From positions 1 to 34,489 of the forward strand of contig CAUJHL010000088.1 of assembly GCA_963204705.1 (NCBI GenBank): DNA of 34,489 bases, written 5' to 3'. Below are positions 1 through 2,604 of the stretch, piece by piece. How positions within the stretch are numbered: position 1 is the stretch's first letter; every line of letters begins with the position of its first letter. The position numbers were made by a program, and so were the translations under genes. This stretch comes from Pseudomonadota bacterium. GTDB taxonomy: Bacteria > Pseudomonadota > Gammaproteobacteria > Pseudomonadales > Moraxellaceae. The notes under the pieces were generated by a model. It had not been told where the DNA came from, did no database searches, and saw only the letters and a list, made by a program, of their open reading frames with translations.

Positions 1-2153
1 CCCACAATGGCAGCCGTGGTACTGGCAACGCCATATACTTTTTTCTGTAACGTGCCATCTGGATTATAAACGTATTGTTCTGCCATTCCGTTCGGCAGAA
101 TCATGCGCTCGGGTTTGCCAAAAGAGTTGTAACCCAGATACCGGGTGGTACGTACAGAACCATTGACCAAATGGGATTCCGTGGCTTTATTGCCGTAGGC
201 GTCATAGGTATAGGTGACTTTATCCACATCCCCTGCCAGCGGGCCATTCACCGTATTAAGCAGACCATTTGCGTAATACACATAATCGGTGGTCTTGGCT
301 GTACTGCCTGTTAGTGAAGATGTCTGGGTTTGTTGGGTAATTTGCCCAAGGGTATTAATGGTGTTAGTAATCGTCTGGTAAGGGGTTTTAATGAGGGTGG
401 GGATCGTAAAGGGATCCATGGTAATCCCATCACTGAGCAAACCATACTCATAGCTCGTTGCCCGCTGCTCAGGTTTTCCGATTGCTTCTTGGATGAGCTT
501 TACACGACCCATCGCATCATAACTATAGCTGTTTTGATTGCCCCTACTGTCGGTATAATTAATTAACTGTCCTTTTGACCCATCGAAGTGCACTGTGCTG
601 ACGGGATTATTAGCTATCAGCAAACAGGGTGCGCCATTAACAGTTAGGGCAATGTCGGAATCACTATTGGCTACCGTTGAAACTGTCGTCGTGGCATTTT
701 GTACACCATCAGGCGAAAAAGTGAGCTGAATGGTTTTGGCAATATCATCATAGACCGTAGTGGTATCCCGTACTGGCTTTGAACCATCCAGCATATAGGA
801 GCGTAGTGTCGTTTTAGCAGTGCTAAAAACTACCGACCCAATCAGTACATAGTTTTTTGTTACTTCCCATTTTGCCACCAAATGAATAAGAGCATCATTT
901 AATTCGGATAATACAGGATAACGATAGCTATCATCGGCGACCTGACCATGCTGTGTAGCAAACAACGGTGTCGCACCGTATTGCACCAGATTATATCCAA
1001 AACTTGTGGTAGTCTCTGAAGTGGAGGAAGCATTCAGCAAACTGTAAAGCTTCTCGGGGATTCCAGTTCCTGGATTCTTGCTATCAAAACTTGACCAATT
1101 CAAATTCGCAATCTGGCTATCGCCTCTGCTTCCACCACTTGCGGTTACTTTAGTGACAAGACGCGACTCACTGTCGGTTTGAGCAGACGCATTATATGTC
1201 CTTTCAAAAACTAATTTATTTCCAAAATTGTCAGAAACCTGTTTCAAATTAAGCTTGGAATCATAGTCCAAATTAAGAACTTTGGTAGCAGTTTTAATCT
1301 GTGCAATCCGCTGTAGGGAGATAGAGGTAGTAATTGTCTCAGTCTCAGAAATTGCTAAGTTAGAGGCAACACCGGCACTGACATTAGGACCATTGAAATA
1401 CTGAAATGTTTTGTATAAATTACCATTAGTAGCAATAAATGCATATTTCGTATAACTATCAGTTTGCGGCGCAGCCATGACATATTGGGAATTACCAACA
1501 ATATAATCAATACCATTTCTAGAAATTATATAGTTTGCATTTGTTTTTCTAATCGAATACTCACCCAAGTCACTTGACCAAGGTAGATCACCGATTGCAT
1601 TGGTGTTCATCATTCCAATGCTATCAGCAGAATAAAGTCTAGAAAATAAACCGTCTTGCTCCTTAAACATTAGCTCTGTGTTTTGTCCTGGCAATCTTAC
1701 AATCATTATACGAGCATTTGTATTAATCGTTACGGGATTAGATGATGAAAGCTGATAAGTCCAGTATCCACCAGATATTCCAGACAAATTAGCAGTAAAG
1801 TTTTGATAAAATGTAAAACGTGACGAAAAATCCCGAAATTCGACATAGGAACTATAGTTATCTCTCCAGCCGCTATTACTATTCTCTGGATTAGTGAAAT
1901 TAAAAGCTGCGCTAACATTTTGCCTTAGAGGTGCTTGATAAAATATCGAATATGGCAAATTCCCTTTGATCAGATTTTTACCGTAACTGACATCACCTGC
2001 TAGGAGATCGTAACCCTGAGTGCAAACTGACTGCAAATCAGCCGAATTGGCTACTGAATAATTCTGCGCCACTACGTCGGACGCATTCGCTACGTCGAAA
2101 ATTAAAATACTAAAAAACACACACAATAAGCGCGAAATCAAGACATTAAACAT
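1..2153 (-). CDS. RHS/YD-repeat secreted protein, 5' part (runs off left edge)
   Basis: The minus-strand frame stays open from an ATG at 2153 to position 1 (about 717 codons), so the C-terminal part, where RHS proteins carry their variable domain, lies outside the window. Residues 1-24 form a signal peptide ending VANA. Residues 95-100 (GWRDNY) resemble the motif found early in RHS shell domains. YD-type repeats appear near residue 527 onward (GNQNSYSYDAMGRV) and near 630-655 (VTYTYDAYGNKATES). An AAAGGG ribosome-binding site lies just upstream, and the start is 36 bp after the small lipoprotein gene, so the two are probably co-transcribed. The first 1-2 kb is AT-richer than the rest of the window, which suggests transfer. 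Known RHS proteins build a shell around a toxin or act in surface adhesion and competition; which applies here is unknown because the C-terminus is missing. Confidence 0.85.
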   Translation of the reverse strand, partial: MFNVLISRLLCVFFSILIFDVANASDVVAQNYSVANSADLQSVCTQGYDLLAGDVSYGKNLIKGNLPYSIFYQAPLRQNVSAAFNFTNPENSNSGWRDNYSSYVEFRDFSSRFTFYQNFTANLSGISGGYWTYQLSSSNPVTINTNARIMIVRLPGQNTELMFKEQDGLFSRLYSADSIGMMNTNAIGDLPWSSDLGEYSIRKTNANYIISRNGIDYIVGNSQYVMAAPQTDSYTKYAFIATNGNLYKTFQYFNGPNVSAGVASNLAISETETITTSISLQRIAQIKTATKVLNLDYDSKLNLKQVSDNFGNKLVFERTYNASAQTDSESRLVTKVTASGGSRGDSQIANLNWSSFDSKNPGTGIPEKLYSLLNASSTSETTTSFGYNLVQYGATPLFATQHGQVADDSYRYPVLSELNDALIHLVAKWEVTKNYVLIGSVVFSTAKTTLRSYMLDGSKPVRDTTTVYDDIAKTIQLTFSPDGVQNATTTVSTVANSDSDIALTVNGAPCLLIANNPVSTVHFDGSKGQLINYTDSRGNQNSYSYDAMGRVKLIQEAIGKPEQRATSYEYGLLSDGITMDPFTIPTLIKTPYQTITNTINTLGQITQQTQTSSLTGSTAKTTDYVYYANGLLNTVNGPLAGDVDKVTYTYDAYGNKATESHLVNGSVRTTRYLGYNSFGKPERMILPNGMAEQYVYNPDGTLQKKVYGVASTTAAIV

Positions 2154-2189
2154 TTTAAAACCCTTTAATTTTTTTCCGCGATTAAAAAT

Positions 2190-2444
2190 TTACGATTGGG
2201 AAGGCGCCAATCTAATCACCTGACTTTTTAAAGTTGGATTAATTTTACCAATTTCTTGAGGTGCTGAATTTTGTGGGTTCAGTTGCTCTTTCCTTATACG
2301 GGACTGCAACTGTGCAAATTCCTGATTCGCCTGAATTGCGGCTTGATTTTCCTGATGAACAGGAGTGGATTCCTTACAACCACTCATGAGCAGCAATACG
2401 CCTAAAGAAGTGAGTATTATTTTTTGTCTAACAATTTTTTTCAT
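2190..2444 (-). CDS. Small predicted lipoprotein upstream of the RHS gene
   Basis: An 84-residue protein starting MKKIVRQK. It has a short basic n-region, a hydrophobic stretch and a lipobox L-M-S-G-C with the lipidated Cys at residue 23. The mature part is only about 62 residues, polar and Gln/Asn-rich, with no recognised domain. A longer reading exists from 2558, but its extra residues are not signal-like, so the ATG at 2444 is preferred. The gene lies 36 bp before the RHS gene on the same strand and probably shares its promoter. Its job is unknown; a surface anchor or secretion accessory for the RHS protein, or an immunity factor, are possible inferences from position only. Confidence 0.7.
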   Translation of the reverse strand: MKKIVRQKIILTSLGVLLLMSGCKESTPVHQENQAAIQANQEFAQLQSRIRKEQLNPQNSAPQEIGKINPTLKSQVIRLAPSQS

Positions 2445-2481
2445 AAGACCACACTTTGAAGTCCAAAGTAAAATTTTGTTA

Positions 2482-2510
2482 AAAATACAACCACTTTCGA
2501 TTGAGATCAA
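2482..2510 (-). promoter_or_regulatory. Candidate sigma-70 promoter for the lipoprotein-RHS pair
   Basis: Read on the minus strand, TTGATC (2505-2510) and TATTTT (2482-2487) are separated by 17 bp. Each matches four of six consensus positions. The implied transcription start is about 30 nt ahead of the lipoprotein ATG at 2444. This is a motif match only. Confidence 0.35.
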
Positions 2511-2604
2511 GTCAAAAAAGAGGCACCTGAGCGCTCTCCTGAACACTACTAAACACACGCCGCATCATACTGGCCTGATGTAAACCTCTACGCCCCCTCC
2601 CAGC

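Follow-up and report, generated by a model that had tools for sequence, protein, structure and literature searches.

Neisserial MafB toxins are preceded by a lipobox protein, MafA, for which a role in surface anchoring has been suggested in a passage of Zhang (2012; PMC3482391). In the sections drawn on from Arenas (2020; PMC7738311), MafA is described as an oligomeric outer-membrane lipoprotein that is needed for MafB secretion, and its homologues are stated to include one in Moraxella nonliquefaciens that is flanked by mafB. However, an excerpt of Jamet (2015; PMC4287609) reports secretion of MafB without mafA in N. cinerea, which counts against a MafA-like need. The locus described here is organized like MafA/MafB/MafI of Neisseria, insofar as the excerpts present that system, in that a lipoprotein gene lies directly upstream of, and on the same strand as, the gene for a predicted Sec-exported polymorphic toxin (PMC4287609, PMC7738311). 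Judging from its sequence, the latter gene probably encodes an exported antibacterial toxin of the RHS type.

The window, meaning the whole stretch of 34,489 nucleotides that was analyzed, is an entire contig (C88) of a genome (G000) of 2.40 Mb in 169 contigs with a completeness of 99.46%. The original prediction placed a signal-peptide RHS protein beside an 84-residue lipoprotein, in a region richer in AT than the rest and in a layout other than that of the type VI secretion system (T6SS), and each of these elements was borne out (Table 1). Both reading frames, the signal peptide, the lipobox LMSGC and a same-strand gap of 36 nt upstream of the RHS start were recovered, and GC content is 39-40% in the two genes versus 56% in the remainder (RHS positions 401-2153, 0.402; positions 1-400, 0.475; lipoprotein gene, 0.388; positions 2605-34489, 0.563). 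The AT-rich stretch is followed on the right by the gene for a carbonic anhydrase (at 2605), one for a Crp-type regulator and other household genes. No T6SS family, VgrG or PAAR was found by Pfam among the 28 main non-overlapping ORFs of the window (24 of the 28 at E <= 1e-8 or 1e-5). The genome likewise gave no match to VipB (PF05943), the sheath protein of the T6SS. RHS/YD repeats are present in the RHS protein, with RHS_repeat (PF05593) scoring 33.9 bits against a Pfam cut-off of 22 as the sole above-cut-off Pfam family on the visible part. The signal peptide, called by a simple hydrophobicity and A-x-A rule in place of a trained predictor, has an h-region KD of 2.66 and an A-x-A-like site after residue 24; by eye, the N-terminus ends its signal in A-x-A and carries no lipobox. 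The window lipoprotein itself matched no Pfam family above cut-off. The terminator-like hairpin listed in Table 1 was considered as a terminator or attenuator between the two genes and rejected, as it was absent from the six other loci checked and is unique to the window among the seven.

Table 1. Features at the left end of the window.
Feature	Positions	Strand	Description
RHS (YD-repeat) protein	3..2153	minus	N-terminal 717 residues with signal peptide, open at contig end
Signal peptide of the RHS protein	2082..2153	minus	residues 1-24, ends VANA, MFNVLISRLLCVFFSILIFDVANA; hydrophobicity and A-x-A rule
Intergenic gap	2154..2189	minus	36 nt
Terminator-like hairpin	2212-2194	minus	overlaps the end of the lipoprotein gene
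Lipoprotein	2190..2444	minus	84 aa, signal peptide, lipobox LMSGC, Cys at 23, Lys at +2, mature part 62 aa
AT-rich stretch	1..2520		GC about 0.36-0.48; right edge by eye, left edge beyond the assembly

The RHS gene is truncated where the contig ends. Contigs C88 and C121 share their first 141 bases exactly and agree at 383 of the first 404, which makes positions 1-404 of the window 95% identical to another RHS gene, located on C121. We read this as a shared repeat that broke the assembly, with position 1 as an assembly break inside the RHS gene; because C88 is a whole contig bearing a repeat shared with C121, what precedes position 1 falls in a gap of the assembly. Searching the genome with a relative (from G045, about 40% identical over the visible part) as the query did not recover the middle of the gene. 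Four other contigs (C143, C9, C55 and C142) do carry the ends of RHS cores together with C-termini and small genes downstream; C143 most resembles the window subfamily by eye, and none could be assigned to C88. On C143 (L047, 3-1763), an RHS-core end with its C-terminus, a gene for 183 aa and an orphan core fragment form a cassette array, and none of the three elements had a Pfam match at E <= 0.01; near the end of C55 (L050, 5946-6518, minus) lies a C-terminal RHS piece with DUF4951 (PF16309, 98.5 bits). A third RHS gene (L009 on C73, 3-1520, minus), with an N-terminal hydrophobic segment, comes after same-strand genes that by eye resemble a Tad pilus cluster (ATPase, TadB/C-like, secretin and TadE-like), and may possibly be a Tad-linked RHS. 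A structure predicted for the N-terminal region of the window protein from an alignment of three sequences was unusable (mean pLDDT 36.7). Neither the window protein nor the first 700 residues of its relative in Acinetobacter sp. NIPH 298 had a match at E <= 1e-5 among 72,556 plasmid records.

Relatives were collected with a five-sequence RHS profile, which matched in 36 of 348 genomes of the same family, the window genome included; loci were taken from the 15 genomes in which the match was longest, the remaining 21 having matched over short stretches only. The family (Moraxellaceae) and the genus g15 (Acinetobacter) are both inferred labels, and G045 denotes Moraxellaceae MAG 338R, G228 Acinetobacter sp. 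NIPH 298, G214 A. puyangensis and G288 A. stercoris. A scan of genome contigs with the single protein returned no relative, and its repetition with an alignment returned 68 loci, 64 of which were control candidates. In all eight complete relatives, the RHS core (Rhs_assc_core) is followed by a variable C-terminus and then by a small gene in the immunity position, an ORF on the same strand that starts within 23 nt or overlaps and that is immunity-like by position only; orphan core-CT pieces lie further downstream in four of the eight. A C-terminus with neither a variable domain nor a downstream partner had been named beforehand as evidence against the proposed pairing, and 8/8 relatives have both. 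The corresponding end of the window gene lies outside the assembly and, to go by these relatives, should likewise comprise an RHS core, a variable C-terminus and a small downstream gene.

The co-occurrence of the lipoprotein with RHS genes in other genomes, which the original prediction had offered as one of its checks, is frequent, as 10 of 19 RHS loci of the same subfamily, the window included, have a small lipoprotein gene immediately upstream. Nine were found by a lipobox scan (the window, G045, G010a, G010b, G208, G228a, G163, G201 and G228b) and one by homology, the gene upstream in G150 having a non-canonical lipobox that the scan missed. Across the 234,933 bases of the 19 loci there are only 11 short lipobox ORFs, and nine of these sit directly upstream of an RHS gene, which is more than chance would place there. 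A control set of 45 further RHS genes, largely of other taxa, yielded a single candidate upstream lipoprotein, a doubtful one that resembles a membrane protein; the other 19 of the 64 loci had been excluded, their gene start being either outside the locus or not more than 400 bases from its edge. The span scanned was 500 bases in the control versus 1,100 in the 19 loci, and all nine hits fell within 118 nt. The difference (9/18 versus 1/45) gives a Fisher p of 1.7e-5 for loci that are related and not independent, with G288 left out (69 bases upstream) and G150 counted as negative. An extra control of fifteen further RHS loci contained two that were evaluable, neither with a lipoprotein.

The remaining loci bear on how general the arrangement is. 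No upstream lipobox ORF was found in C121, G146, G281, G173, G205, G174, G214a and G214b, of which G214a and G214b are frame-broken and G174 has, by eye, a transposase gene upstream and has lost its RHS N-terminus. Signal-peptide RHS genes are among them (G146, G281, G173, G205 and the frame-broken G214a), and since the lipoprotein is missing beside these, and since C121 has an Lcl_C/TM gene at this place, it is not needed for every such RHS protein. The C121 gene (L003, 2005-2658, minus) encodes a 217-aa protein with Lcl_C (PF07603) above cut-off and, by eye, a C-terminal membrane segment; it precedes the paralogous RHS gene and overlaps the start of the longest RHS reading frame. In a tree of RHS N-terminal regions (17 loci and 4 outgroups, the frame-broken G214a and G214b being left out), a clade of eight with support 85/93 holds seven carriers. 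The carrier label requires 4 changes on this tree versus a mean of 7.2 after shuffling, and so low a count arose in 7 of 500 shuffles; at least 3 changes are imposed by well-supported branches and no bootstrap tree has 1, so that a single clean origin of the carrier state without losses is not supported. The motif GW[TRSV]DNY occurs in nine of the ten carriers and also in C121, G288, G205 and G214a. Taken together, the pairing of lipoprotein and RHS gene is real and recurrent, and is well supported by these observations.

Dependence of the pairing upon a T6SS can be judged from the genomes of the carriers. VipB, used as one T6SS marker with a positive E. coli control, was unmatched not only in the window genome but also in the one-contig G010 and in G163, and was present in the carriers G045, G208, G228, G201 and G150 and in 9 of the 15 genomes searched overall. 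Because it is missing from three carrier genomes, a T6SS is not required for the pairing, although five of the eight carrier genomes have one.

Whether the lipoproteins constitute one family is less clear-cut than their placement. By BLASTP with the window lipoprotein as query, two pairs pass 0.01, those with G208 (E = 7e-4) and G010a (E = 0.003). Alignment by hhalign of the window lipoprotein against a profile of the Acinetobacter lipoproteins gives E = 3e-6 and a probability of 88%, and the four non-Acinetobacter lipoproteins taken together reach a probability of 92% in profile comparison. The Acinetobacter profile also finds the window lipoprotein in a search (E = 2.9e-4 per genome), and the alignment reaches into the mature part. 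However, the best hit after the five seeds, among the matches listed, is a lipoprotein of G253 (E = 1.5e-4), which is unrelated, 163 aa long and devoid of an RHS neighbour in its 3.2-kb locus; as it outscores the window lipoprotein, the profile hit of the latter is not decisive by itself. Lipoproteins of this kind without RHS neighbours, the other counter-evidence named at the outset, were not encountered, as the four non-RHS matches opened among those listed for 348 genomes (G253, L173, L174 and L175) are other lipoproteins, although this is a weak test, the profile having had no match in G010 and noise-level hits only elsewhere. Sequence comparison thus makes homology beyond Acinetobacter likely but weak. 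The mature part measures 37-62 aa and has no Trp in nine short lipoproteins, and the other lipoproteins scanned matched no family above cut-off. The tenth (G228b) is unrelated, its sole match among the other nine, as query, having E = 6.3; it precedes the second RHS gene of Acinetobacter sp. NIPH 298 (L159, 2431-2790, plus) and resembles EexN (entry exclusion) at E = 1.4e-6, below cut-off. Asp at +2, which in E. coli retains lipoproteins in the inner membrane, is absent in all ten.

The part of the RHS locus that the lipoprotein tracks was examined by pairwise comparison of eight complete loci, out of nine with a related short lipoprotein, each pair being counted in one query direction and the window lipoprotein being added to the lipoprotein pairs. 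The RHS N-terminal halves and the cores each match in 28 of 28 pairs, the C-termini in one (E = 0.010) and the downstream genes in none of the 28, and the lipoproteins match in 10/10 pairs among the five Acinetobacter loci (12/36 overall). Since the C-terminus and downstream gene vary while the lipoproteins remain similar, conservation of the lipoprotein goes with the constant part and not with the toxin tip, which argues strongly against immunity and in favour of a protein that partners the constant part. The original prediction had left secretion, anchoring and immunity side by side as roles for the lipoprotein; of these, secretion or anchoring is now the best reading, and immunity fell away once lipoproteins of the five Acinetobacter loci were seen to be conserved across unrelated C-termini and downstream genes. 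That an immunity protein can be a lipoprotein is illustrated by the family Imm65, as given in a passage of PMC3482391, but with C-termini unrelated in 27 of 28 pairs, and with a gene of its own, unrelated to the others, directly after the C-terminus in each of the eight complete relatives, immunity to the RHS toxin is a highly improbable function here. The lipoprotein gene could also be a passenger that does nothing for the RHS protein, as the gene is missing beside several relatives, and an unrelated lipoprotein (G228b) or the Lcl_C/TM gene (C121) occupies its place; however, its recurrence at the same position and strand in 10/19 loci against 1/45 elsewhere, and its conservation while C-termini are exchanged, render this quite unlikely.

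Two further possibilities grant the lipoprotein a different role in export. It may resemble colicin lysis proteins and perturb the outer membrane of the producer, such that a periplasmic RHS toxin leaks out, which would suit its very small size (mature part 37-62 aa in nine of ten) and fast-diverging sequence. However, the lysis genes of group A colicins come last in their operons, according to a passage of PMC9517006, and the lipoprotein gene comes first here; moreover, the lipoproteins scanned matched no family above cut-off, a hit to spanin2 in G228a (E = 0.075, 13.4 bits versus a cut-off of 100) lying far beneath it, and release of this type seems improbable. Alternatively, the lipoprotein may act in the periplasm as a chaperone or adapter, keeping the RHS shell in a state that suits a different exporter, e.g., type II secretion, and neither anchoring it nor making up the outer-membrane route. 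Dedicated membrane chaperones serve type II substrates in Acinetobacter, and the tracking of the constant N-terminus would be expected of such a protein; a hit to XAC1346 'secretion chaperone' in G163 is far below threshold (E = 0.028, 15 bits versus a cut-off of 120), and only a small likelihood is attached to this role.

These data allow a model in which the lipoprotein serves secretion of the RHS protein across the outer membrane, or its anchoring there. That the locus encodes a polymorphic toxin of the RHS type and a lipoprotein functionally linked to it is very probable; that the link consists in outer-membrane secretion or anchoring has about an even chance of being correct. The model proposes that both proteins are exported by Sec and that the lipoprotein, having no Asp at +2, is sorted to the outer membrane, where it may bind the RHS protein at its constant N-terminal region. 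In this way the shell that holds the toxin would cross the outer membrane or be tethered to it; the C-terminal toxin could then be set free to act on neighbouring cells, and the product of the downstream gene would protect the producer. The lipoprotein would thus act as MafA does for MafB, a mechanism we infer from that analogy, although a mature lipoprotein of this size would be small for a pore unless oligomeric. It is conceivable, albeit rather doubtful, that this constitutes a minimal two-partner export system, in which a mature lipoprotein of ~40-60 residues suffices to bring or hold an RHS shell of ~1,600 residues at the surface without a T6SS. The T6SS model leaves unexplained how RHS toxins with a Sec signal exit a Gram-negative cell, and a small lipoprotein tied genetically to the constant half of such toxins is a concrete candidate for the missing partner. 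For Acinetobacter and its relatives, a signal-peptide RHS gene with GW[TRSV]DNY and a small lipoprotein gene upstream provides a marker for the locus.

A lipoprotein with a Sec-exported polymorphic toxin is a known kind of system, and what appears new is the RHS toxin in that pairing, as no description of an RHS-lipoprotein pair was found in the literature searched (titles, abstract openings and passages). The likeness to Maf extends to the absence of Asp at +2 of the lipoprotein, as presented in excerpts of PMC4287609 and PMC7738311, and, judged from the relatives, probably to the downstream region, where the portions of the Maf literature consulted place an immunity gene and C-terminal cassettes and where the RHS relatives have a gene in the immunity position (8/8) and orphan pieces (4/8). 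Unlike the window RHS protein, MafB is characterized in those excerpts as globular, with DUF1020 and no repeats (PMC4287609, PMC7738311), and MafA, at about 313-320 residues and oligomeric in the source passages, differs from the 84-residue window lipoprotein. Only RHS-type families, and no MafB-N/DUF1020, stood above cut-off in the window protein and the relatives scanned (Pfam, NCBIfam), no Maf model came up from the libraries scanned, and no homology to MafA or MafB was seen in these scans. With the Rhs effectors of T6SS (Tse5, Tse15, Tre23 and others), the complete relatives share a variable C-terminus, and the core end of one of them (L054) matches solved structures; the N-terminal profile of the window RHS protein matches Rhs structures weakly (E 0.002-0.004). 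Unlike these effectors, the window RHS protein has a signal peptide in place of PAAR/VgrG coupling, and G000, G010 and G163 have no T6SS sheath gene. Colicin lysis proteins are likewise small lipoproteins made with a secreted toxin, but the window lipoprotein is encoded first and has no above-cut-off family match. WapA is an RHS-related exported polymorphic toxin as well, but its hosts are Gram-positive and have no outer membrane. Bacterial teneurin-like proteins resemble the present system in being exported YD-shells with polymorphic C-termini, as set out in part of PMC13018210. A point of difference is that Pfam reported no NHL domain here. Those of Gram-negative bacteria are predicted, in the same part of that source, to bear the lipoprotein signal on the toxin (PMC13018210), unlike the window, where the lipoprotein is separate. 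If the minimal route holds, the lipid anchor that Gram-negative teneurin-like toxins carry themselves would here be supplied by a separate protein.
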